Below the pieces are notes generated by a model that was given only the letters and a program-made list of their open reading frames with translations, ran no database searches and was not told where the DNA came from. The position numbers and the translations under genes are program-made. A DNA stretch of 35,589 bases from Clostridia bacterium (lineage in GTDB: Bacteria > Bacillota > Clostridia > Oscillospirales > CAG-272). Positions 11,341 to 35,090 of this stretch are shown in pieces; the first letter of the stretch is position 1; every line of letters starts with the position of its first letter. The DNA lies in assembly GCA_017451735.1 (NCBI GenBank), contig JAFTNU010000080.1:1-35589 (forward strand), written 5' to 3'.

Positions 11341-11386
11341 AAGAGCAGAGGCCGCCGCGGATTCATCCGCGGCGGCCTCTGCTCTT
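11341..11386. terminator. Very strong 21-bp hairpin between convergent genes
   Basis: A perfect 21-bp, GC-rich stem (11341-11361 with 11366-11386; it contains GCAGAGGCCGCCGCGG) with a TTCA loop lies between the AEC permease and the DUF1653 remnant, touching the latter's stop codon. It is probably a shared terminator, but neither side has a proper T-run. Confidence 0.6.
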
Positions 11387-11702
11387 AGGTTCCCAAATAA
11401 GTAAATCGCGGGAAAGTCTTACCGTCTCGTGTAATGGTCTCGTTCCACATGGTCGCAGGACGGACCCATACCTCACCTTCTCCGTAAAGAGCGCGATAGA
11501 CAACCATCTCCTCCAGAGTTTCGGAATGCTTGGCAAGGCAAAGCACCTCATATTCCGGGCTCTTTGCCAGACGAAAATAATACGAACTCGCCTGCAAGCC
11601 CTTTGACACAGCATTGACATGATTTTCGGACTCCGAATCGGGTTCGTATTATTTTCGCCCGGCTATAAAGTGACGGTAGCGCCCGAGTCTGAGCTCTCCC
11701 AT
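11385..11702 (-). pseudogene. DUF1653 protein gene disrupted by a small inverted-repeat element
   Basis: From ATG 11702, with AAGGAGA about 9 nt upstream and TATAAT at 11735-11740, the frame reads MGELRLGRYRHF, the usual DUF1653 N-terminus, then hits a TAA after 17 codons. The rest of the domain continues after 11566: PEYEVLCLAKHSETLEEM, VVYRALYGEGEVWVRP, ending FTYLGT at 11385. DUF1653 proteins are about 65-75 residues, of unknown function, and normally run without a break from YRHF to YEVL. The gap is filled by an element with inverted repeats at both ends (11566-11663). A shorter product from an internal GTG at 11609 is possible but would carry element-encoded residues. Promoter and ribosome binding site look intact, suggesting recent disruption. 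Confidence 0.85.
11566..11663. mobile_element. ~98-bp MITE-like element with 22-bp inverted ends
   Basis: Left end 11566-11587 and right end 11642-11663 are inverted copies matching at 20 of 22 positions, sharing a perfect 16-bp core (CGAAAATAATACGAAC). The 54-bp interior has no open frame of note but holds TTCGGA-C-TCCGAA (11625-11637), a small internal hairpin. It interrupts the DUF1653 domain at one point, which is the main evidence for insertion. No clear target duplication is seen, so the exact borders are uncertain by a few bases. It encodes no transposase and would have to be moved by an enzyme encoded elsewhere. Confidence 0.7.
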
Positions 11703-11867: not shown

Positions 11868-13235
11868 ATGAAAAAGGATCTGACTACAGGCAGGCCTCTA
11901 TCGGTCATTTGCCGCTTTGTTCTACCGCTTTTGTTGGGCAATTTATTTCAGCAATTTTATAATATGGTGGATTCTGCCATTGTCGGTCAATATCTTGGCG
12001 CAGACGCCTTGGCCGCCGTAGGCAGCACCGGCTCGATCAGCTTTCTGATCATCGGATTCATGAACGGTATTTCCAGTGGCTTTTCCATCATTGTGGCCCG
12101 CTACTACGGCGCCAAGGACATGGACGGCGTGCGTCGTGCCATCGGTACCATTCTGTGGCTGGCCACCGCCATCAGTCTGGTGGTAACCACCGCCTCCGCT
12201 TTGCTGACCGGGCAGATTCTGCGTTGGATGATGACTCCCGAAAATATTTTTAAAGACTCCTATGCTTATATTTTTGTCATCTTTCTGGGTATTCCCGCTA
12301 CCATGCTCTACAATACCCTGGCCGGCATTCTGCGGGCCCTTGGGGATAGTCGCACCCCTCTTTATTTTCTGATCGTTGCATCGCTGATCAACATCGTATT
12401 GGATTTTGCGTTCATTCTTGGGTGTGATATGGGTGTGGGTGGTGCCGGACTTGCTACGGTCCTTTCCCAGCTGCTCTCGGGACTGATGTGTCTGTTCTAT
12501 ATGTACAAAAAGCGCCCCGATATTCATCTCTCCCGCATCCATCTGCATTTTCGCCCTTCTCTTGCCCGTCAGCTTTTGTTTGTGGGCTTGCCCATGGCAT
12601 TGCAATTTTCCATTACCGCTATCGGCTCCATCACCATTCAGACAGCAACCAACACGCTTGGCAGCTCTGCCGTGGCGGCGGTAACGGCGGCCAATAAGTC
12701 ACAGGCCTTTTTGACCACACCCTTGGATTCTTTGGGTGGTGCTATGGCGACCTACTGCGGGCAAAACCTGGGGGCCGGCCGTATCGACCGTGTCAAAAAG
12801 GGTTATTGGAGTGCTGTAGGCTTGGGCCTTGCCTTCTGCCTGTTTGCCACACCCTTTTCCATCTTTCTCGGCCGTTATGTTTCCCTGCTGTTTTTGGACG
12901 CGGGAGAGGTTGCGATCCTCTCCAATGTATCGGTGTTCTTATTTTGGAATGCAGTATTCTATCCTTCACTGATGATGGTCAACGTGGTCCGCAATTCAAT
13001 TCAGGGGCTGGGCTACAGTGTTCCAGCCATGGCGGCAGGTGTTTTTGAGCTGGTAGGCAGAAGTGCCGCCGCTTTGATACTGGTGGACAGGATCGGCTTT
13101 GTGGGTGTCTGCCTGGCCAGCCCCATTGCCTGGATCCTGGCCATTGGATTTCTGATCCCCACCTACCATATTGTAGTCAATAGGCTACAAAAGCACCTCT
13201 CGCCGTCACCAACAGACAAAACGACTGCTGCATAG
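11868..13235 (+). CDS. MATE-family efflux transporter
   Basis: A 455-residue membrane protein with about twelve hydrophobic segments and an internal two-fold repeat. The opening MKKDLTTGRPLSVICRFVLP, then LLLGNLFQQFYNMVDSAIVG and ALAAVGSTGSISFLIIGF, is the usual start of the Firmicutes MATE/NorM-DinF group, which exports drugs or metabolites using a sodium or proton gradient. The start is ATG 11868, 7 nt after AAGGAG; the frame is open further upstream, but that part contains the promoter. Its substrate is unknown. It is a single-gene transcript, bracketed by the full inverted-repeat element (11566-11663) and a half copy (13264-13292). Confidence 0.93.
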   Translation: MKKDLTTGRPLSVICRFVLPLLLGNLFQQFYNMVDSAIVGQYLGADALAAVGSTGSISFLIIGFMNGISSGFSIIVARYYGAKDMDGVRRAIGTILWLATAISLVVTTASALLTGQILRWMMTPENIFKDSYAYIFVIFLGIPATMLYNTLAGILRALGDSRTPLYFLIVASLINIVLDFAFILGCDMGVGGAGLATVLSQLLSGLMCLFYMYKKRPDIHLSRIHLHFRPSLARQLLFVGLPMALQFSITAIGSITIQTATNTLGSSAVAAVTAANKSQAFLTTPLDSLGGAMATYCGQNLGAGRIDRVKKGYWSAVGLGLAFCLFATPFSIFLGRYVSLLFLDAGEVAILSNVSVFLFWNAVFYPSLMMVNVVRNSIQGLGYSVPAMAAGVFELVGRSAAALILVDRIGFVGVCLASPIAWILAIGFLIPTYHIVVNRLQKHLSPSPTDKTTAA

Positions 13236-13263
13236 CCGAGCCTCAATAGGTTGAACTCGGCCA

Positions 13264-13292
13264 GCCAAACGAAAATAATACAAATTTGCCTG
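13264..13292 (+). repeat. Half copy of the DUF1653 inverted-repeat element
   Basis: These 29 bases match the left end of the 11566 element, in the same orientation, at 25 of 29 positions, including CGAAAATAATAC and the GCCTG that lies inside the element. The opposite end is missing. It lies 28 nt after the MATE stop codon and may be a decayed or partly deleted copy. Confidence 0.65.
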
Positions 13293-13301
13293 ACTAAGGT
13301 T

Positions 13302-13336
13302 AAGGGTACCATCCGATATTCGGATGGTACCCTTTT
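13302..13336 (+). terminator. Intrinsic terminator after the MATE gene
   Basis: A 15-bp perfect stem (13302-13316 with 13320-13334; it contains GGGTACCATCCGA) with a 3-nt loop, followed on the plus strand by TTTTATC. It also lies directly after the stop codon of the convergent beta-propeller gene and may serve it, although the T-run on that side is poor. Confidence 0.8.
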
Positions 13337-13337
13337 A

Positions 13338-26372: not shown

Positions 26373-29300
26373 ATGAAAGTTATGCTCAAACGCACACTTC
26401 TCCTTTCCCTTCTCGTCCTTGTTGTCGCAAGTCTGATGACTTTCGGCATCGCGGCGGCAGAGAAAGGAGAACCCGTCACGGTCACAACCGCGGCAGAGCT
26501 TGCCATGGCCTTGACCAACGCCGCCGAGGACGGCTCCACTGTCATCAAGTTAGCGAATAACATCGATCTTGACGACAGCGCCTTTAGTCCTTCGGAGGGC
26601 ACTGATGAAGCCAGCGCTTTTAACATTACAAAAGGCGTGACCATCACTGCCGATACGGACGTAACCATTTCCACTAACAAGTATCAAAAGGTGTTCCGCG
26701 TTTACGCGAACCTCATCCTTGAGAACATTACGATCACCAACAGCACTAATCAGGGCCGTTGTGTGGATACCCGTGCGGACGGGATCGAGGTCACGCTGAA
26801 AAATGTGACTCTGAAGACCACAAGCACCGCCAATAACCAGCCTTTGAACATCGGCGGTACCGACACGGCCGATGTGATGACCACCGTTACCCTGGACAAC
26901 ACCTCCATCGAGGCAGGCGTGGCCGGTTACGGTATCATTGCCTGGGTTCCCTGCAATGTCAATATCACCAATGGCAGTAGCGTTACCGCTTACGGTGCCG
27001 TGTACATGAAGGGCGAGGCCGATGGCGGCAATACCACCGGCTCGGTGATCACCGTGAACGCATCTACCCTTTCCGGTGTCAACAACCACAGCGGCGCCTC
27101 CGACAGCTTTGGTACCGTTGTATTTTTGGATGAAGGTATTACCCTTTCGGTTGTCGATAGCACCGTCGAGGCCACCGGTACCGGTAACCAGACCGCCATC
27201 CATCTTGGCGACAATCGGGCGACTGTCAGCGTTGACAGCGCATCCACCGTTACCGCCCAGGGCGATAACGTGACTCTGGCCGGTGTCACTGCCGACACTA
27301 CCTTGGCTTTGCCCGCAGGCTCCGACCTGGAAAAGGACGCCGCAGCAGAGCTGAAGGCCGAGGGTGTCACCACCCTTATGGTGGCTCAGGTCAACGGGAT
27401 CAGCTATACCTCTTTTGCAGATGCTCTTGCCGCGGCCGGTGCAAACGATACCATTTATTTATTAGCCGCCTTCACAGTAGATGACACCATCACCATCACA
27501 AAAAGCATCACCATTGACGGTGGCGATTTTACGGTATCCTCTGCTGCCGCAAACCCTGTTTTTCAGGTATCGGGTGCTACCGTTACCTTCCAAAACATGA
27601 CTATCAAAGCCGAAACCGGAACGGCTCTTACTGTTACCGGAGCTTCTTCTACGATTACTTTGAACAGCGCCGAGTTGGATGGTTATAAATACGGTATTTA
27701 TGTTTCCGGTGCCACTCAGTTCACTTTGACTGTCGCCAAGGATACCACAGTTAAGGGCTCCTCTTTGGCCGGTATCTATTTTGGCGGCACCACCACCGGT
27801 ACAGCAACGATCCACGGCGAGGTCTACTCCGCTGACACTCACGCCATCCAGGCCTACAAGGAGGGTGCTGGGCTTAATATTGATCTGATTATTGAGACCA
27901 CTGCTTACCTCAAAGGTGCTGCAGCAGCAACCGAATTGAACAAGGGTGTCGTTCACGTAAACGGTTCTGCTATTGTCCGTGTTACCGTCAAAGGCGGTGC
28001 ACAGATCGTAGTCAACGAGGGCGTGACCGGTGTTTACCATCTCTATGCCACAGCCGGTGCCAACAAGGTAGGAACGACCTTCACCTTTGAAAACCATACT
28101 ACCTACAAGGCACGGTACGAGGGTGTTTGGAATGACGGCGCCAATGGCTCTACTCTTGCATATCGGTTTGGTAACGATCCTTCCGATTTTATATCTTATT
28201 TTAAAGATACAAACAAGAATGAAAGCGCTAAAAAATGGACCAACACCATTTACCTCTTCGATGATGTTTCTTGTTCCAAGACGATCTCTACTAATTATAA
28301 TCTCATCATCGACGGCCAGGGGCACACGGTTACCTTCAACAACTCCGATAAGATCGGCATCAGCCTTGCAAGCGCGCAAACGCTGAATCTGCAGAATGTT
28401 ACCCTTTCCGGCGCGGGTCACACCGCTATCGCCGTAACCGGCGCTGAGGCCGTCACGATCAATCTGACCGATGTCAGCTCCAAGGATATCGGCACGGTGG
28501 TTGCCCACAGCGGCACCGGTGTGATGACGTTGAACATCAAGGGCGGTTCCTTCTCCGCTACCGATGATGTGATCCTTCTGTCGAGCACAGCATCCACCGC
28601 AACCAACATTATTAATATTAATACCGATCGGAATGGGCATACCTCCTTCTCCGGTGCAGGCTCTGCCATTCACCTTGGCAAGGAAAGCACCGTTTCGGCT
28701 ACCGTAACGGTTTATCACGCCGATATCGCCTCTACAGGTGATTACACCATCCTCCATGAGGGCACCGGTGCCATGGTCTTCACCATGGTCAGCGGTCTGA
28801 TCGATTCCGACGCCAGCCACGCCATCGCCTCCTCGGGCAGCGGCAAGCTGACCGTCAATCTGAACGTGGTGGATATCGAGGCCAAGACAAACGGTATCTA
28901 CATCGGCAGCTCCTGCACCGCCGATATCACCGTTATGGGCGGCAAATTCGATACCGACGGCGCCGGCATTTGCGTTGACAACAAGGCAACCTCCCTTGTG
29001 CTTAAAATGACCTCGGTCATCATGGATTCCTCCGACGGGTTCTCGGTTGACGTCGGCGCAGGCGCAGGCGGCACCGCTTACCGTTATACCACGGTGACCA
29101 TGACCGATTGTACCATCACCGGTAAATCCGGTGTGCGTGTCAACGGCAAGACCGACTCGACCTCCACTGCTACCCTGCTGATGAAGGGATGCAAAGTTAC
29201 CGTAGACAACGAGGCACTTTTCATGGACCAGCAGTTAGTTGCCACCATTACCGACTGTGCCCTTTCGGCAACCGGTAATGCATATTACGCTGTGGGCTCT

Positions 29301-32300
29301 GCCGATAACAGCGGCTTTAGCAACCGCACCGTTTATGTCAAGAATACGGTAAACGTTACCTTCAACGGTTCTACCAAAATTACCTTTAAGATGCTGGGTG
29401 TTAAAGAGTTTGAGGCAGCTGCCCCCAATGACCAGAAGAACACCTTCGGCTCCTGCATGTTCTGGGGCGGTAGCTCTAACACCACGGTAACATTTACCGA
29501 TGATGTTATCCTGGAAAGCGACTACATGGGATTGTACTTTAATAATCCTGCCGGGAACGACTCGATCACCTTCTCCGGGAAGGCGCAGCTGACCGCAAGC
29601 GGTCGCCACGGCATTTACCTCAACGGTAATCAGGATGAGCTCAAAACATCTAAGATCGTGCTGAAGGACAATGCCAAGATCACCACAACGGTTGCTACCT
29701 CTTCTATCTGGAATAAAAAGTTGGAGGATAGCGCTGTATTTGCGCTGTACTTAATGGATAATACGGTAAATCTGGAGATCCACGATAAGGCCGCCATCGA
29801 TGCCGCAGGCTCGGCCATTTACTACAACAGTAATGTGACCAATGTCAAATTCACCCTTGACATGGACGGTGGCTCGATCGAAGCAGGCAATACCGGCATT
29901 CTGACCGGAAGCAGTGCCGCTTCCCTGACGGTCATCAACATGACCGGCGGTACCATTCAAACCTCCGACTATGCGATCAAGTTGTATAGCGCCGCGGAGA
30001 TTACCATCGATATGCCCGAGCTGACCGATACTCCCGTGATTCAGGGCTCCCGTGTGTTCTCTCTCCATGAGGCACAGGATTATACGATCGTACTGAACAA
30101 TGCTTATCTGAAGGCCACCGACAATGTGATCCATAAGACGCACCACGGCATCACACTCAATAGTGATAAGACCTACAACTATCGCTATACCGAATTTGTG
30201 GTAAAGGCAACCAACTCCAAGTTGAGTGGCGGTAACGGTGCCCTCTATATTGCCAATGCCGCAACCAATGACAAGGGGGATAGCACAACCTATGCCTATG
30301 ACGCCGCACTGGTTTGGGCAGACATTACTCTGACCAACTGTACCGTTGAGGCCAAGTACGGTATCAGCATCTGGGGTGCAACAAAGCAAACGGTTGACAA
30401 AACCGACGAGACCTACGGTATTGCCTCCAAGATCGTAATCGACGGTGGTTACTACAAGACCTCTGATTTAGTTCTCTCCCTTGCAGGCGATGTGGAGGTA
30501 ACCGTTCAGAACATCGACGATGTCAAGAGCGGCAACGAGCTTTTCGAGAGCACCGATAATAGAATTATCAATATCTATGACGGTGTCACCTATGGGAAAG
30601 CAAAGATCCTCCCCTCCAATATCACCATTACCGTAAGCAATTCTACCATCCAAACCAAAACAAGCGAAGGCATCTATTCCGAGGCGACCGGAGATTTCAA
30701 GGTCACGTTGAATCAGGCCACACTGAATTCTTACAAGTACGCCATCGCAGCTGCCGGCGCTTGCAGCAGTTATACGGTTGAGGTGCTGAACGGCTCTGAG
30801 ATAACCGTAGCCGAGAGCGGCGCTCACACTGCTATCTATGCGGCAGGCTCCAATAAAACCAAGATCACCATTCAAAATTCCGATGTAACCGGCGACACCT
30901 ACGGTATGTTAATCAACGGTACCGATGTAAATACTTCCACTTTTGAGCTTGACATGACCGATAACAGTCACCTTGTTGCAAGAACCAATATCGGCATCAA
31001 ATTCTATAAGGGTGTATATGACATTGACATCGTAAACAGTTATATCGAGGCTGTTGCCAATCACGCAATCAACCTCAACCCCGATGCCGCCAGTAACGGT
31101 TATTCCTCGCTTACCATCACGATGGATGAGAAGGACGCATGGACCGGTGACAATGCCAAGCCTACGATCACTGCAGGCCAATACGGCATCTATTTCCAAG
31201 GCGACAACCCTGTAAAGCTTGAGTTGGAGAATATCTACATCAAGACATCCGGCGTTGCAATTTACCGTTCCAGCAGCGGTTCCGCCAATTATCTATCCGG
31301 CTCTATCAAAAATTCCAAAATTTATTCCGAAACCAGCCTTGCCATGTATCTCACTTTTAACGGATCCAATGCTAAGGTTGCTATGAAGGAGCTTTCCTTT
31401 ACCGATTGTGAGATCGAGGGTAAGGGCGGCATTATCATTTCCGGTAAAACGGGAACCGACTCCAAGTTGACCATCAAGGGTGGCTCCATCACCGCCAACG
31501 GCGGCGCCAGTTGGTCAAGCAACAATCACGGTGCATTGACCGCTTCGAACGATATCGATGTGGAAATCATCGGTACTGCGATCGTATTAAAGGATCAGGA
31601 AGACTCCAACTATCGTGCAATTATGTTGTACGGCGACACCTTGGATCATGACGGCCCTTCCGTAACGCTGAGAAGCTGCACGCTTGAATCCTCTTCGGTC
31701 GGATTCTACTTTGCCAATGTCACCAACGGAACCGTTCATCTTTACGGATGCACCGACATTACCGCTACCAACAATCTGTTCGGCGGCAATACCACAGGTA
31801 ATGTCACCATTCTGGTTGACAGCTCTACCCTGACCACCGAGACGGATTCCATGTATTACAGTGGCAATAAAACCGGCAAGCTGACACTGACCATCCGGAA
31901 TCACTCTCAGGTCAACACCGTGAACTACATTGTTCTGGCTACCAAGCAGGGTGGATACGAGATCAACATCTCCGATTCTACTGTAGAGTGCACCAATAAT
32001 AGTGCCATTTCGTTGGGCGGCGCCTATGACGCCAGCATCGTTCTGAATAACGCCACCGTCAAGACCACGGCCGATCGGGTTGCCAAATCCTACAAAGATG
32101 ATGGTTCCGTTAAGGAATGGACCGTTTTCTACGGTATTTATCACAACGGCGCCGGCCACCTCTACCTGGAAATGAGCGGCAACAGCCTGATCGAATCCTC
32201 CGGTGAGGGCGGTATCGGCATTTACAAGCAAAATCTTTCGGGCACCGGTGAGATGTACATCTACGGCGGCCGCATCGTGGCTTCCTCTCACGGCGTACAA

Positions 32301-35090
32301 TGGGGCTCTGACAACAGCACCATCAATATCCTTCTGGACAAGAGACCCGAGGTGCCCACCATCCAGAGCGGTGACCGTGCCTTCTCGCTCCATAACGCGT
32401 GCAATGTAGACTTTGAATTTGAAAACGCCTACCTCTACGGTAAGAACAGCGTTGTCTACAAGACCCATCCCGGCCTTATCAAGGAAGGCGATGAATACGT
32501 TCTGACCTCCCAGCTCCATAAGGTGACTATTGTTGCCACCGACTGTAAGCTGGAGACCGACACAAGTGGCATCATCTTCAATATGGCAAATCAGGCCACT
32601 GCCAACAAAACCACGAATCCCGCTTATTCGGCTCCCGTGATCTGGTTTGACATTACCCTGAATGACTGCGAGGGCACCGGCAAGCAGCTCCTCAACTCCT
32701 GGAGCAGACTCGACGAGAACGGCGATCCTGCCCGCGTTACCATCAACGGTGGTCGTTATGAGACCGCCGACGGAGTGTTGAACTTCTACGGCAGCGCAGA
32801 GGTCTACATCAACGACGGCGCCGTGCTGACCAGCACCGGTACCAGCGTCCTTTGGGTGGGTACTGCCACGGATGTGAATAACGAGTTCATTGCCATCAAC
32901 GTGAGCTTCTACATCAACGACTCCACCATCAACTGCCCCACCGATAACAAGGCAGGCATCTATCTTGCCAACTCCAAGGCCACCTACAGCATCGAGCTGG
33001 TGGATTCCACCATCGACGCTTACTGCAACGGCATCATGAACTTCGGTACGCTGTATCTGTACATCGGCGGTGATTCCCTGATCACCACCTCCAGCGCAAC
33101 CGATACCGACACAAGCAACTCCATGTATCCCGCAGGTATTATGTCCTGGACCGGCGGCCCGCTCTGCCTGGATATGGACGGCGGCCGCATCGATACCGCA
33201 GGTCCCTGCATCGCGCTCCATCCTCAGGTATCCGGCACCTATTTCCATATCATCATGGATGAGCCTTACGGCAGCACACCTACCCTGAGAAGTGCTACCT
33301 CCTACGCCTTCTGGCTCCGCGACTACGGCTCGATCGACCTGGTTTTGGAGAATGTTTATATCAGCTCCGCCGGCAATGCCATCCACCGCTCCAACTCCGG
33401 CAAGGTCCAGCAATACATGACGGGCTCCATGACCAACTGTAAGGTGGTTACCAACGGTAGTGCCCTTTACCTGACCAACAATGCAACGACCAACACCTCG
33501 GCGCCCCCCACGCTGAACATCCAGTTCGATGTGATCAACTGCGATTTCACATCTGCCGGTTACACGATTCAGGCGTCCACCTCCAACGGCGATTCGGTGA
33601 TCAACATCATCGGCGGCTCCTATAAGAGCCTGAATAGCGATGCTGTGGTATACGGCCTTGGTTATGTGACCATCAACATCTATGCCGGTTACTTCGAATC
33701 CGACCTGATGTGTGTGGCACGCGTGACCGACTACGCCACCATGAACATCTACGGCGGCTACTTTGTGAATGCCAGAGTCTCCGGCTTCAACGATTATACC
33801 TCCGTCATTCGTCTTGGCACCGACGCCGAAGGCTTTAACTGCTCTATGAATGTCTACGGCGGTACCTTTGTGGCCAACGAGGGCGCAAATGCCATCTTCA
33901 ATCTGAACAAGGGCTATGCGTTCAATGTGTTCTCCTACAATTGCGAGGGTGCACAGGCCATCATGACCGTGGATAACGGTGCTACGGTTGCGATCCCCTA
34001 CTCCTCCAAGGTGCACAAGGCTTCTACCCACGCTCCCGTGATGATCAACGGTGCGCAGATCCGTCTGACGCTCTCCGAGGATAACGGCAGTGGCATCCGC
34101 TTTGTGACCAACATTCCCGCTAACGTGTTTGAGTACATCGAGCTTGTCTGCGATTACGACTCCGAGCTGACCATGGGCACGGTGATCGTTCCCGCCGACT
34201 ATCTGGCCGACATCCCTGCCTTTACCATCGACGCTTTGGAGACGGCCGGCAAGCAGTATCTGAACATCGAGGCTCAGAACGGTATCATCATCAACGAGGA
34301 CGGCAGCATTACCCTGCGCGCAGTCATCGACAACATCATGGAGCAGAACTACGACCGTGAGTTTGCGGCAGTGGCTTATGTCATGTACACCGTGAACGGT
34401 CAAAATGTTTACATCTACTCCGATTACGATCCCGACAACAACGCACGCAGTCTCTCGGGTCTTGCTGACAAGGCGCTCTCCGATCTGAAGTACACCAAGA
34501 CCTCGACCCACCGCTTCCCTGTTGAGATCGACGGCCAGATCTTCTACAGCCGCTACACCGAAAACCAGCGCGCGGCGCTCTCGGTCATCCACAACTGTGA
34601 GTACACCGAGACCATTGTGGAGGAGGCAACGCCTCTTGTGCCCGGCTACAAGGTGGTGAGCTGCGAGGTCTGCGGCACCTACTATGAGTCTGTGATCCCC
34701 GCCACCGGCGAGATCAAGGTTCTGTTTATCGGCAACAGCTACTCTGCCGAGGGGCTGTTGGAGATGCGGAACGAGCTGCTCGGTATGGGTATTGAAGATG
34801 TAACCGTTGGTTATGTGAATCTTGCAGATGCTACCCTGATCGACTACGCGGAGGACCTGAGCTCCGATGAGATCGTGTACACCTACTACAAGAACAGCAG
34901 CGGTCTGACGGTTGGCGATACGAAGGCTCCTCTTGTTAAGGGCATTCTTGACGAGAGCTGGGATATCATCATCGTCCAGCACTCCGACGACGATACAGCA
35001 GGTCTTGACAATCTGCTGGAGAAGCTGGAGCTGCTCTGCCCCGATGCTGTGGTATCTTCTCAGGTGATCGAGGCCGTACCGGCCGAGTGA
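26373..35090 (+). CDS. Giant secreted right-handed beta-helix protein (2905 aa)
   Basis: A signal peptide of about 29 residues (cleavage after GIAAA) is followed by more than 2500 residues of short beta-strand repeats rich in Thr, Asn, Gly, Ser, Val and Ile, the pattern of pectate-lyase-like parallel beta-helices. Helix-cap-like starts occur near residues 35, 337 (VNGISYTSFADALAAA) and 591-640. A larger unit recurs four times, near 1208, 1579, 1984 and 2289, each with a Pro-Thr/Val-Ile/Leu segment, an aromatic segment and a LELEN-like strand. From 2539 follow a globular domain (GAQIRLTLSEDNGSGIRFV), a CEVCG...IPATGE motif near 2770, and the start of an SGNH/DUF4886-like domain (VLFIGNSYSAE) that stops after about 120 residues. 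There is no LPXTG or SLH anchor. It is likely an adhesin or glycan-binding surface protein; no enzyme activity is shown. Confidence 0.85.
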   Translation: MKVMLKRTLLLSLLVLVVASLMTFGIAAAEKGEPVTVTTAAELAMALTNAAEDGSTVIKLANNIDLDDSAFSPSEGTDEASAFNITKGVTITADTDVTISTNKYQKVFRVYANLILENITITNSTNQGRCVDTRADGIEVTLKNVTLKTTSTANNQPLNIGGTDTADVMTTVTLDNTSIEAGVAGYGIIAWVPCNVNITNGSSVTAYGAVYMKGEADGGNTTGSVITVNASTLSGVNNHSGASDSFGTVVFLDEGITLSVVDSTVEATGTGNQTAIHLGDNRATVSVDSASTVTAQGDNVTLAGVTADTTLALPAGSDLEKDAAAELKAEGVTTLMVAQVNGISYTSFADALAAAGANDTIYLLAAFTVDDTITITKSITIDGGDFTVSSAAANPVFQVSGATVTFQNMTIKAETGTALTVTGASSTITLNSAELDGYKYGIYVSGATQFTLTVAKDTTVKGSSLAGIYFGGTTTGTATIHGEVYSADTHAIQAYKEGAGLNIDLIIETTAYLKGAAAATELNKGVVHVNGSAIVRVTVKGGAQIVVNEGVTGVYHLYATAGANKVGTTFTFENHTTYKARYEGVWNDGANGSTLAYRFGNDPSDFISYFKDTNKNESAKKWTNTIYLFDDVSCSKTISTNYNLIIDGQGHTVTFNNSDKIGISLASAQTLNLQNVTLSGAGHTAIAVTGAEAVTINLTDVSSKDIGTVVAHSGTGVMTLNIKGGSFSATDDVILLSSTASTATNIININTDRNGHTSFSGAGSAIHLGKESTVSATVTVYHADIASTGDYTILHEGTGAMVFTMVSGLIDSDASHAIASSGSGKLTVNLNVVDIEAKTNGIYIGSSCTADITVMGGKFDTDGAGICVDNKATSLVLKMTSVIMDSSDGFSVDVGAGAGGTAYRYTTVTMTDCTITGKSGVRVNGKTDSTSTATLLMKGCKVTVDNEALFMDQQLVATITDCALSATGNAYYAVGSADNSGFSNRTVYVKNTVNVTFNGSTKITFKMLGVKEFEAAAPNDQKNTFGSCMFWGGSSNTTVTFTDDVILESDYMGLYFNNPAGNDSITFSGKAQLTASGRHGIYLNGNQDELKTSKIVLKDNAKITTTVATSSIWNKKLEDSAVFALYLMDNTVNLEIHDKAAIDAAGSAIYYNSNVTNVKFTLDMDGGSIEAGNTGILTGSSAASLTVINMTGGTIQTSDYAIKLYSAAEITIDMPELTDTPVIQGSRVFSLHEAQDYTIVLNNAYLKATDNVIHKTHHGITLNSDKTYNYRYTEFVVKATNSKLSGGNGALYIANAATNDKGDSTTYAYDAALVWADITLTNCTVEAKYGISIWGATKQTVDKTDETYGIASKIVIDGGYYKTSDLVLSLAGDVEVTVQNIDDVKSGNELFESTDNRIINIYDGVTYGKAKILPSNITITVSNSTIQTKTSEGIYSEATGDFKVTLNQATLNSYKYAIAAAGACSSYTVEVLNGSEITVAESGAHTAIYAAGSNKTKITIQNSDVTGDTYGMLINGTDVNTSTFELDMTDNSHLVARTNIGIKFYKGVYDIDIVNSYIEAVANHAINLNPDAASNGYSSLTITMDEKDAWTGDNAKPTITAGQYGIYFQGDNPVKLELENIYIKTSGVAIYRSSSGSANYLSGSIKNSKIYSETSLAMYLTFNGSNAKVAMKELSFTDCEIEGKGGIIISGKTGTDSKLTIKGGSITANGGASWSSNNHGALTASNDIDVEIIGTAIVLKDQEDSNYRAIMLYGDTLDHDGPSVTLRSCTLESSSVGFYFANVTNGTVHLYGCTDITATNNLFGGNTTGNVTILVDSSTLTTETDSMYYSGNKTGKLTLTIRNHSQVNTVNYIVLATKQGGYEINISDSTVECTNNSAISLGGAYDASIVLNNATVKTTADRVAKSYKDDGSVKEWTVFYGIYHNGAGHLYLEMSGNSLIESSGEGGIGIYKQNLSGTGEMYIYGGRIVASSHGVQWGSDNSTINILLDKRPEVPTIQSGDRAFSLHNACNVDFEFENAYLYGKNSVVYKTHPGLIKEGDEYVLTSQLHKVTIVATDCKLETDTSGIIFNMANQATANKTTNPAYSAPVIWFDITLNDCEGTGKQLLNSWSRLDENGDPARVTINGGRYETADGVLNFYGSAEVYINDGAVLTSTGTSVLWVGTATDVNNEFIAINVSFYINDSTINCPTDNKAGIYLANSKATYSIELVDSTIDAYCNGIMNFGTLYLYIGGDSLITTSSATDTDTSNSMYPAGIMSWTGGPLCLDMDGGRIDTAGPCIALHPQVSGTYFHIIMDEPYGSTPTLRSATSYAFWLRDYGSIDLVLENVYISSAGNAIHRSNSGKVQQYMTGSMTNCKVVTNGSALYLTNNATTNTSAPPTLNIQFDVINCDFTSAGYTIQASTSNGDSVINIIGGSYKSLNSDAVVYGLGYVTINIYAGYFESDLMCVARVTDYATMNIYGGYFVNARVSGFNDYTSVIRLGTDAEGFNCSMNVYGGTFVANEGANAIFNLNKGYAFNVFSYNCEGAQAIMTVDNGATVAIPYSSKVHKASTHAPVMINGAQIRLTLSEDNGSGIRFVTNIPANVFEYIELVCDYDSELTMGTVIVPADYLADIPAFTIDALETAGKQYLNIEAQNGIIINEDGSITLRAVIDNIMEQNYDREFAAVAYVMYTVNGQNVYIYSDYDPDNNARSLSGLADKALSDLKYTKTSTHRFPVEIDGQIFYSRYTENQRAALSVIHNCEYTETIVEEATPLVPGYKVVSCEVCGTYYESVIPATGEIKVLFIGNSYSAEGLLEMRNELLGMGIEDVTVGYVNLADATLIDYAEDLSSDEIVYTYYKNSSGLTVGDTKAPLVKGILDESWDIIIVQHSDDDTAGLDNLLEKLELLCPDAVVSSQVIEAVPAE

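Follow-up and report, generated by a model that had tools for sequence, protein, structure and literature searches.

An internally deleted small element in a Clostridia DUF1653 gene and its structured relatives across the bacterial order

The interrupted gene and the inserted segment

The DNA analysed here, a 35,589-nt stretch from a Clostridia bacterium assembly (contig JAFTNU010000080.1; below, the window), carries on its minus strand a DUF1653 gene whose beginning and remainder lie on either side of a short segment with inverted-repeat ends, which raises the questions what this segment is, from what it derives and what would move it. The first-pass annotation had taken it for a MITE-like insertion of about 98 bp with 22-bp ends. 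The features referred to below are, in window coordinates:

11385..11563, minus strand, 3' part of the broken DUF1653 gene (PF07866, 83.5 bits, profile 7-61)
11564..11665, no strand assigned, inserted mobile element, internally deleted, 102 bp including both terminal dinucleotides (model R1 and alignment)
11566..11590, plus strand, left terminal inverted repeat (repeat search, 88% complementary to 11639-11663)
11593..11599, plus strand, joint of the internal deletion, TGCAAGC (overlapping BLAST segments; alignment)
11639..11663, minus strand, right terminal inverted repeat (repeat search, 25 nt, arms 48 nt apart)
11664..11665, no strand assigned, terminal TA, the target dinucleotide (sequence; TA duplication from other family insertions)
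11666..11702, minus strand, 5' part of the broken DUF1653 gene, start codon to insertion (translation; relatives' reading)
13233..13292, no strand assigned, two decayed element ends side by side (own-genome BLAST, eye, sequence)

The split of the gene is borne out by translation, in which the minus-strand frame starts as MGELRLGRYRHF, enters the insert, meets a single stop and resumes as KSPEYEVLCLAKHSE...; MGELRLGRYRHFIAGRK, the stop and the resumed part all lie in the same frame. The part downstream of the insert matches PF07866 (DUF1653) over profile positions 7-61 of 62 with 83.5 bits, and the flanks of the insert, when joined computationally, give a single open DUF1653 frame. The footprint, with its terminal dinucleotides, is 102 bp (11564-11665) and not about 98 bp; as 102 is a multiple of three, its removal restores the frame, which accounts for the failure of a 98-bp excision to do so and agrees with the earlier suspicion that the true borders differ slightly. 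The inverted-repeat ends are present as described, although each is 25 nt long at 88% complementarity rather than 22 bp.

In 16 of the 20 congeners DUF1653 is uninterrupted (PF07866 search; 17 loci, profile 1-61, 0 stops) and the element does not lie inside an intact gene, while the remaining four gave no PF07866 match; the broken gene is the sole match in its own genome. At the place of insertion the relatives read GRYRHFKG[MN]EYEV or similar, with YRHFKG uninterrupted in the 20 of 28 DUF1653 loci caught by the pattern. As judged from sequence comparison, a small mobile DNA segment thus inserted into the DUF1653 gene and broke it. An in-frame GTG codon within the insert may permit a shortened DUF1653 product. 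Elsewhere in the window, a perfect 22-bp inverted repeat with arms 2 nt apart (11341-11386), terminator-like, lies between the convergent ends of a membrane transport gene (PF03547) and the DUF1653 gene, and positions 26373-35090 form a single 2905-codon frame whose sole Pfam match is to DUF4886 at the C-terminus, barely over threshold (27.2 against 26.7 bits).

BLAST of the window segment against its own assembly (2.37 Mb, 81 contigs) returned strong matches on other contigs at unrelated loci. Full-length copies lie at C74:10052-10329 (278 bp) and C55:44388-44664 (277 bp), copies truncated where the contig stops on C4, C15 and C21, and short forms with both ends comprise the window copy (102 bp) and those on C23 (about 68 bp), C76 (59 bp) and C16 (35 bp), the last two lengths counted by hand. 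The terminal-repeat pattern gave 16 matches in this genome with up to three mismatches and its reversed control none, and the covariance model R1 described below gave 18, both strands counted. The element is hence multi-copy well beyond chance, and the copies elsewhere in the genome that the mobile-element reading called for exist in number. A second subfamily, with ends TAGCCGAGCC..., is found on C74.

Next to each other in the window, 13264-13292 corresponds to an own-subfamily left end (86%, own-genome BLAST) and 13233-13263 to an end of the TAGCCGAGCC... subfamily (by eye against the ends of L189 and L190; weak R1 match, E 1.2). These decayed ends directly follow a MATE transporter gene, whose stop codon TAG (13233-13235) supplies the opening three letters of the element end. 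Another dispersed repeat, of about 140 bp, occurs in G000 (C31:6528-6663, C40:7513-7642, C50:5509-5643 and C74:44367-44446) and in the flank of L021, with 12 matches listed in G018 alone; it adjoins one element.

The window copy matches R1 over model positions 1-278 (44.6 bits on the plus, 42.2 bits on the minus strand), and the terminal-repeat pattern fits its left end (11564-11587) with one mismatch and its right end (11642-11665) with none. Aligned with the 278-bp copy on C74, it differs by one internal deletion of 176 bp: two BLAST segments, 11566-11599 against full-element positions 3-36 and 11593-11665 against 206-278, overlap at the joint TGCAAGC, identical to positions 206-212 and one mismatch away from 30-36. 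As the joint lies on these short direct repeats, the 176 bp would have been lost between two 7-bp near-identical copies, as by replication slippage on a hairpin. As RNA of the minus strand, the 102-nt segment folds with z = -7.0 against 200 shuffles. Positions 11564-11565 read TT, where other copies have TA, and on the gene strand the ends are TATA on one side and AA on the other, so that further small changes are required after a simple TA-duplicating insertion. That the segment arose from a 278-bp element by deletion, and that this element belongs to an order-wide family with a conserved fold, was missed in the first-pass annotation.

Target site, spread and fold of the parent family

The window's own terminal repeat was found in none of the 20 congeners at up to three mismatches; a related one, TAGGCAAGAG..., occurs in 11 of them. 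Elements gathered by end pairs number 27, of which 25 measure 276-280 bp (21 from congeners, two from the own genome and two from G045, which belongs to a different family within the order); the window copy and an element of 328 bp make up the rest. Empty sites were sought for 10 insertions in 21 genomes, and four filled loci could be compared with seven alleles. In L047 against L133 and L134, and in L024 against L135, the empty site has one TA and the filled site two; the L136 junction reads CA, not TA, L096 shows small indels at an AT-rich junction against L130 and L131, and L098 against L132 has a gapped junction. Clean junctions thus give TA as the target duplication, as read from alleles at loci other than the window. 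Together with the copies at unrelated loci, these homologous elements with empty sites sustain the mobile-element reading. G018 holds head-to-tail copies with a period of 276 bp in which neighbours have one TA in common, in tandem arrays that are possibly not independent, given that the contigs share ends. L025 (G007) and L099 (G005) are apparently the same insertion before the same gene, as judged by flanks and protein starts.

R1 was built from 25 full elements. With E 0.001 as cut-off, it gave matches in 48 of the 245 genomes of the order and in 26 of their 126 genera; as only seven candidates were scored per genome, the copy numbers are minimum values. Going by the coordinates listed, 39 of these 48 genomes contain a match near full size (246-315 bp, in 20 genera), in one the match is interrupted by the end of a contig, and eight have only 162-188 bp forms or partial matches. 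Among the 125 listed end-to-end matches, 89 measure 272-283 bp and 16 are of 200 bp or less. A phylum-wide sample of 299 genomes yielded R1 in two only, the own genome and G053, both of the order. The model also matches plain hairpins in the window weakly (as at 13295-13337, E 6e-4), for which reason short weak matches were not trusted.

Fifty-two elements were read individually, being the best loci and hand-picked ones, mostly near full size and with L208 left out, so that their lengths are not a fair sample. Their end arms match each other (at least 19 of 27 positions) in 50, the exceptions being L181 (13) and L190 (6), and 33 carry TA at each of the two borders that the model sets. Between genera the end sequences are entirely different, as in GGCATACGGGAGTCGAACCC against GGCTGATTGGCGATAAGG, yet the arms still match within each element.

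An Rfam scan of the window and 24 loci gave no family at gathering score on an element; a sub-threshold mir-2063 match (25.5 bits against 100) overlaps the L105 element. In a different family within the order, L043:519-690, close to an element, carries two Gut-1 RNA (RF01706) matches in opposite orientations, one of 59.7 bits and one of 43.4 bits, the latter short of the gathering score (50). One genus element gave no match in plasmids and phages, and in viral contigs the genus terminal repeat occurs in two contigs and the own one in none. The sole match of the own terminal repeat in a contig collection, a Verrucomicrobiota record, was set aside, as it has no partner arm nearby and about 0.5 chance matches are expected by estimate; that scan may leave out records of the window's own genome. 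No published description of the family was found in the open-licence literature, judged by title and start of abstract.

The predicted fold (RNAalifold) consists of a terminal stem and two arms with 85 pairs, 50 of which show changes on both sides, against 19.6 +/- 2.7 in 500 shuffles; 95.6% of cells are paired, compared with 30-46% when partners are slid, in controls that leave some phylogeny and with a structure taken from the very alignment under test. Another 48 elements, which had no part in building the model, yielded 4014 cells, 84% of them Watson-Crick as opposed to 50% in 200 shuffles, and at least two Watson-Crick types occur in 77 of the 85 pairs; these elements were partly hand-picked, and their alignment was fitted to the model and so leans towards the structure. 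A single long hairpin was rejected as the conserved fold, its interior being 47.4% Watson-Crick compared with 47.1% in its own shuffles, whereas the two-arm fold reaches 88.7% against 73.8%. As the alignment shows, compensatory changes have maintained the two-arm fold throughout one bacterial order. As single-stranded DNA the full own copy folds with z = -10.8. Neither strand of the family's fold is more stable than the other (-78.7 and -78.5 kcal/mol). Among the 69 pairs that the strands share there are 21 G-U and 40 A-C cells (0 and 19 in arm A, even in the other parts), and since G-U does not exceed A-C there, there is no sign of one RNA strand being kept; the wider set has 194 and 150, and a count of 105 against 40, with the structure chosen on the counted strand, is biased.

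Movement of the element and its upkeep

The full form of 278 bp is too small for a transposase gene, in line with the first-pass annotation, which saw none in the segment, and the open reading frames across the window copy, which were inspected, agree. Because the element codes for nothing, it would be moved in trans by a transposase recognising its ends. A TA duplication combined with long terminal repeats usually marks the work of an IS630-type DDE enzyme. The excerpted texts of PMC2229807 and PMC6267812 likewise link TA to IS630. Given the TA ends, the terminal inverted repeats of about 27 bp and the TA insertion and duplication of the parent family at other loci, an enzyme of the TA-duplicating IS630/mariner type would be the most likely one. 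We thus regard it as quite probable that the window segment is a copy, shortened by internal deletion, of a structured non-autonomous element that targets TA and is moved in trans, probably by an IS630/mariner-like transposase.

The search for a transposase gene between the same ends came out empty. PF13358 (IS630-type DDE_3) is absent from all 21 genomes of the genus, and no inward end pairs 0.6-4 kb apart were seen, by eye, among the genus-pattern places listed, although such absence is weak evidence, IS copies being often missing from draft assemblies. The only own-genome end pair of IS size (2.3 kb, on C76) was discarded, its frames reading by eye as metabolic and non-transposase. A transposase between two G256 elements was likewise rejected, the frames there reading by eye as an operon of rbfA-DHH-truB-ribF type; the elements of this locus (L199, G256:C26:5886-10163) flank frames that we take to be rbfA, a DHH phosphoesterase, truB and ribF.

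That there was no insertion at all, DUF1653 being naturally variable here or misassembled, found no support and is extremely improbable, as relatives read straight through the gene, the same sequence stands at unrelated loci and the segment is short and mid-contig. Another proposal is that an enzyme reads the folded strand, so that ends drift while staying paired; such an enzyme could be Y1/HUH-like, or a recombinase whose substrate is a 276-bp circle with TA as its core. The wholly different but internally matching ends, the clustering of lengths at 272-283 bp, the excess of pairing in the two-arm fold over shuffles, which the single hairpin lacks, and the head-to-tail tandems with one common TA speak for it; yet co-evolving transposases would likewise keep both ends alike, tandems can also arise by unequal crossing-over, the TA duplication and long terminal repeats point to an IS630-type DDE enzyme, and Y1_Tnp (PF01797), present in 10 of the 21 genus genomes, is absent from carriers including G000, G005, G007 and G018, which leaves this reading unlikely. 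The element may also be an ordinary MITE whose fold is kept only mutationally, by quasi-palindrome-templated repair and with no function, as the equal folding of both strands, expected of DNA palindromes, and the existence of shorter forms would suit; the length peak near 278 bp and the conserved letters outside the stems (by eye, in the consensus of the 48 far elements) are left unexplained, and we consider this doubtful. Unlikely as well is the notion of a 278-base mobile nucleic acid inherited and mobilised by shape, its three-way-junction fold being read order-wide by an enzyme or the host and its ends wholly replaceable provided that the arms pair.

Host-side selection could instead keep the fold if the element were a mobile 5'-leader regulatory RNA whose folded transcript alters gene expression. 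A Shine-Dalgarno motif with a gene start lies within 60 nt of 35 of the 137 element sides whose flank was long enough, and within that distance of 890 of the 11260 TA sides taken from these flanks as controls; with the motif 0-2 nt from the side, ahead of a gene start, the figures are 14 of 137 and 50 of 11260 (Fisher p 2e-14), the controls including coding DNA. The gene lies on the right of 20 and on the left of nine elements in the order-wide set of 59, and on the right of five and the left of three in the near set of 16. However, TAAGGAG holds a TA and is a natural target, gene-sparing insertions survive better and the controls include coding TAs, so that insertion preference and survival explain part of the excess; the pooled orientation (25 against 12, p 0.047) includes some orthologous or repeated loci and comes from two sets that overlap in part, and so is not independent; 102 of the 137 sides lack such a gene start within 60 nt, and the wobble pairs show no strand preference. 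The leader reading is improbable. As for the preferred reading, a structured element moved in trans, its conserved interior suggests that a folded strand or cruciform would matter, for mobility or in leader transcripts.

Relation to known small repeats

MITEs are usually seen as local wreckage of one IS, with ends kept and the interior free. The family has terminal inverted repeats, dispersed copies, filled and empty sites, a target duplication and no internal transposase, as a MITE would, and the TA duplication at clean junctions is that of IS630/Tc1-mariner-derived MITEs; ends in common with an autonomous IS of the genome were not seen among the places listed, nor an IS630 transposase in the 21 genus genomes. 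The MITE-like reading of the first-pass annotation stands as to repeats, copies and the lack of a transposase, and falls short in that the fold is conserved order-wide, unlike in a plain MITE; a passive MITE does not explain the order-wide persistence of length and internal fold.

ERIC, Correia and RUP are small repeats with TA termini and target duplication, according to the excerpted PMC2229807. ERIC (with IRU and RU-1) and MITEPlu5 resemble the present family in these traits as well as in small size, strong structure and occurrence in several related genera (excerpts of PMC2229807, PMC6267812, PMC2267715). ERIC is however described there as 127 bp long with a 7-bp terminal repeat and a single long stem-loop (PMC2267715, PMC2229807), and the present family, with 278 bp, a terminal repeat of about 27 bp and a terminal stem with two arms, is set apart by description. 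MITEPlu5, ERIC-related, 123 bp long and with TA duplication, has ends resembling IS630 transposons of the same genome (PMC6267812, in part), an end partner of which none was found for the present family. Correia or NEMIS elements are alike in their 24-bp terminal repeats, TA termini, target duplication and longer and shorter forms, and differ, compared by description, in size (about 107 and 155 bp) and in their host, Neisseria; RUP of Streptococcus pneumoniae shares the TA target, terminal repeats and a proposed trans mobilisation, by IS630-Spn1, and differs in its 107 bp, its 9-bp terminal repeat and its candidate partner IS, again found for none of our elements (both after the excerpted PMC2229807). 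Two-armed or double-hairpin folds are predicted for CIR (Caulobacter/Brucella) and Efa-1 (Enterococcus) in the excerpts of PMC2229807 and PMC2267715, of which the former describes CIR without a stem formed by the 5' and 3' ends and the latter Efa-1 by a 163-position model in one species. The family is closest to the ERIC, Correia and RUP repeats and is a member of no single one of them, being longer, differently folded and kept in its interior across the order.

The persistence of interior length and fold over about 20 genera, while the ends change, raises the question of what is selected. A comparable question stands for ERIC-type repeats, whose movement by a transposase was without experimental support at the time of a 2007 review, in its excerpted text (PMC2229807). 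With many filled and some empty sites at hand, association analysis offers a way to search for the mobilising enzyme and then to test it, and the insertions just before Shine-Dalgarno motifs make the family a candidate source of new leader regulation.
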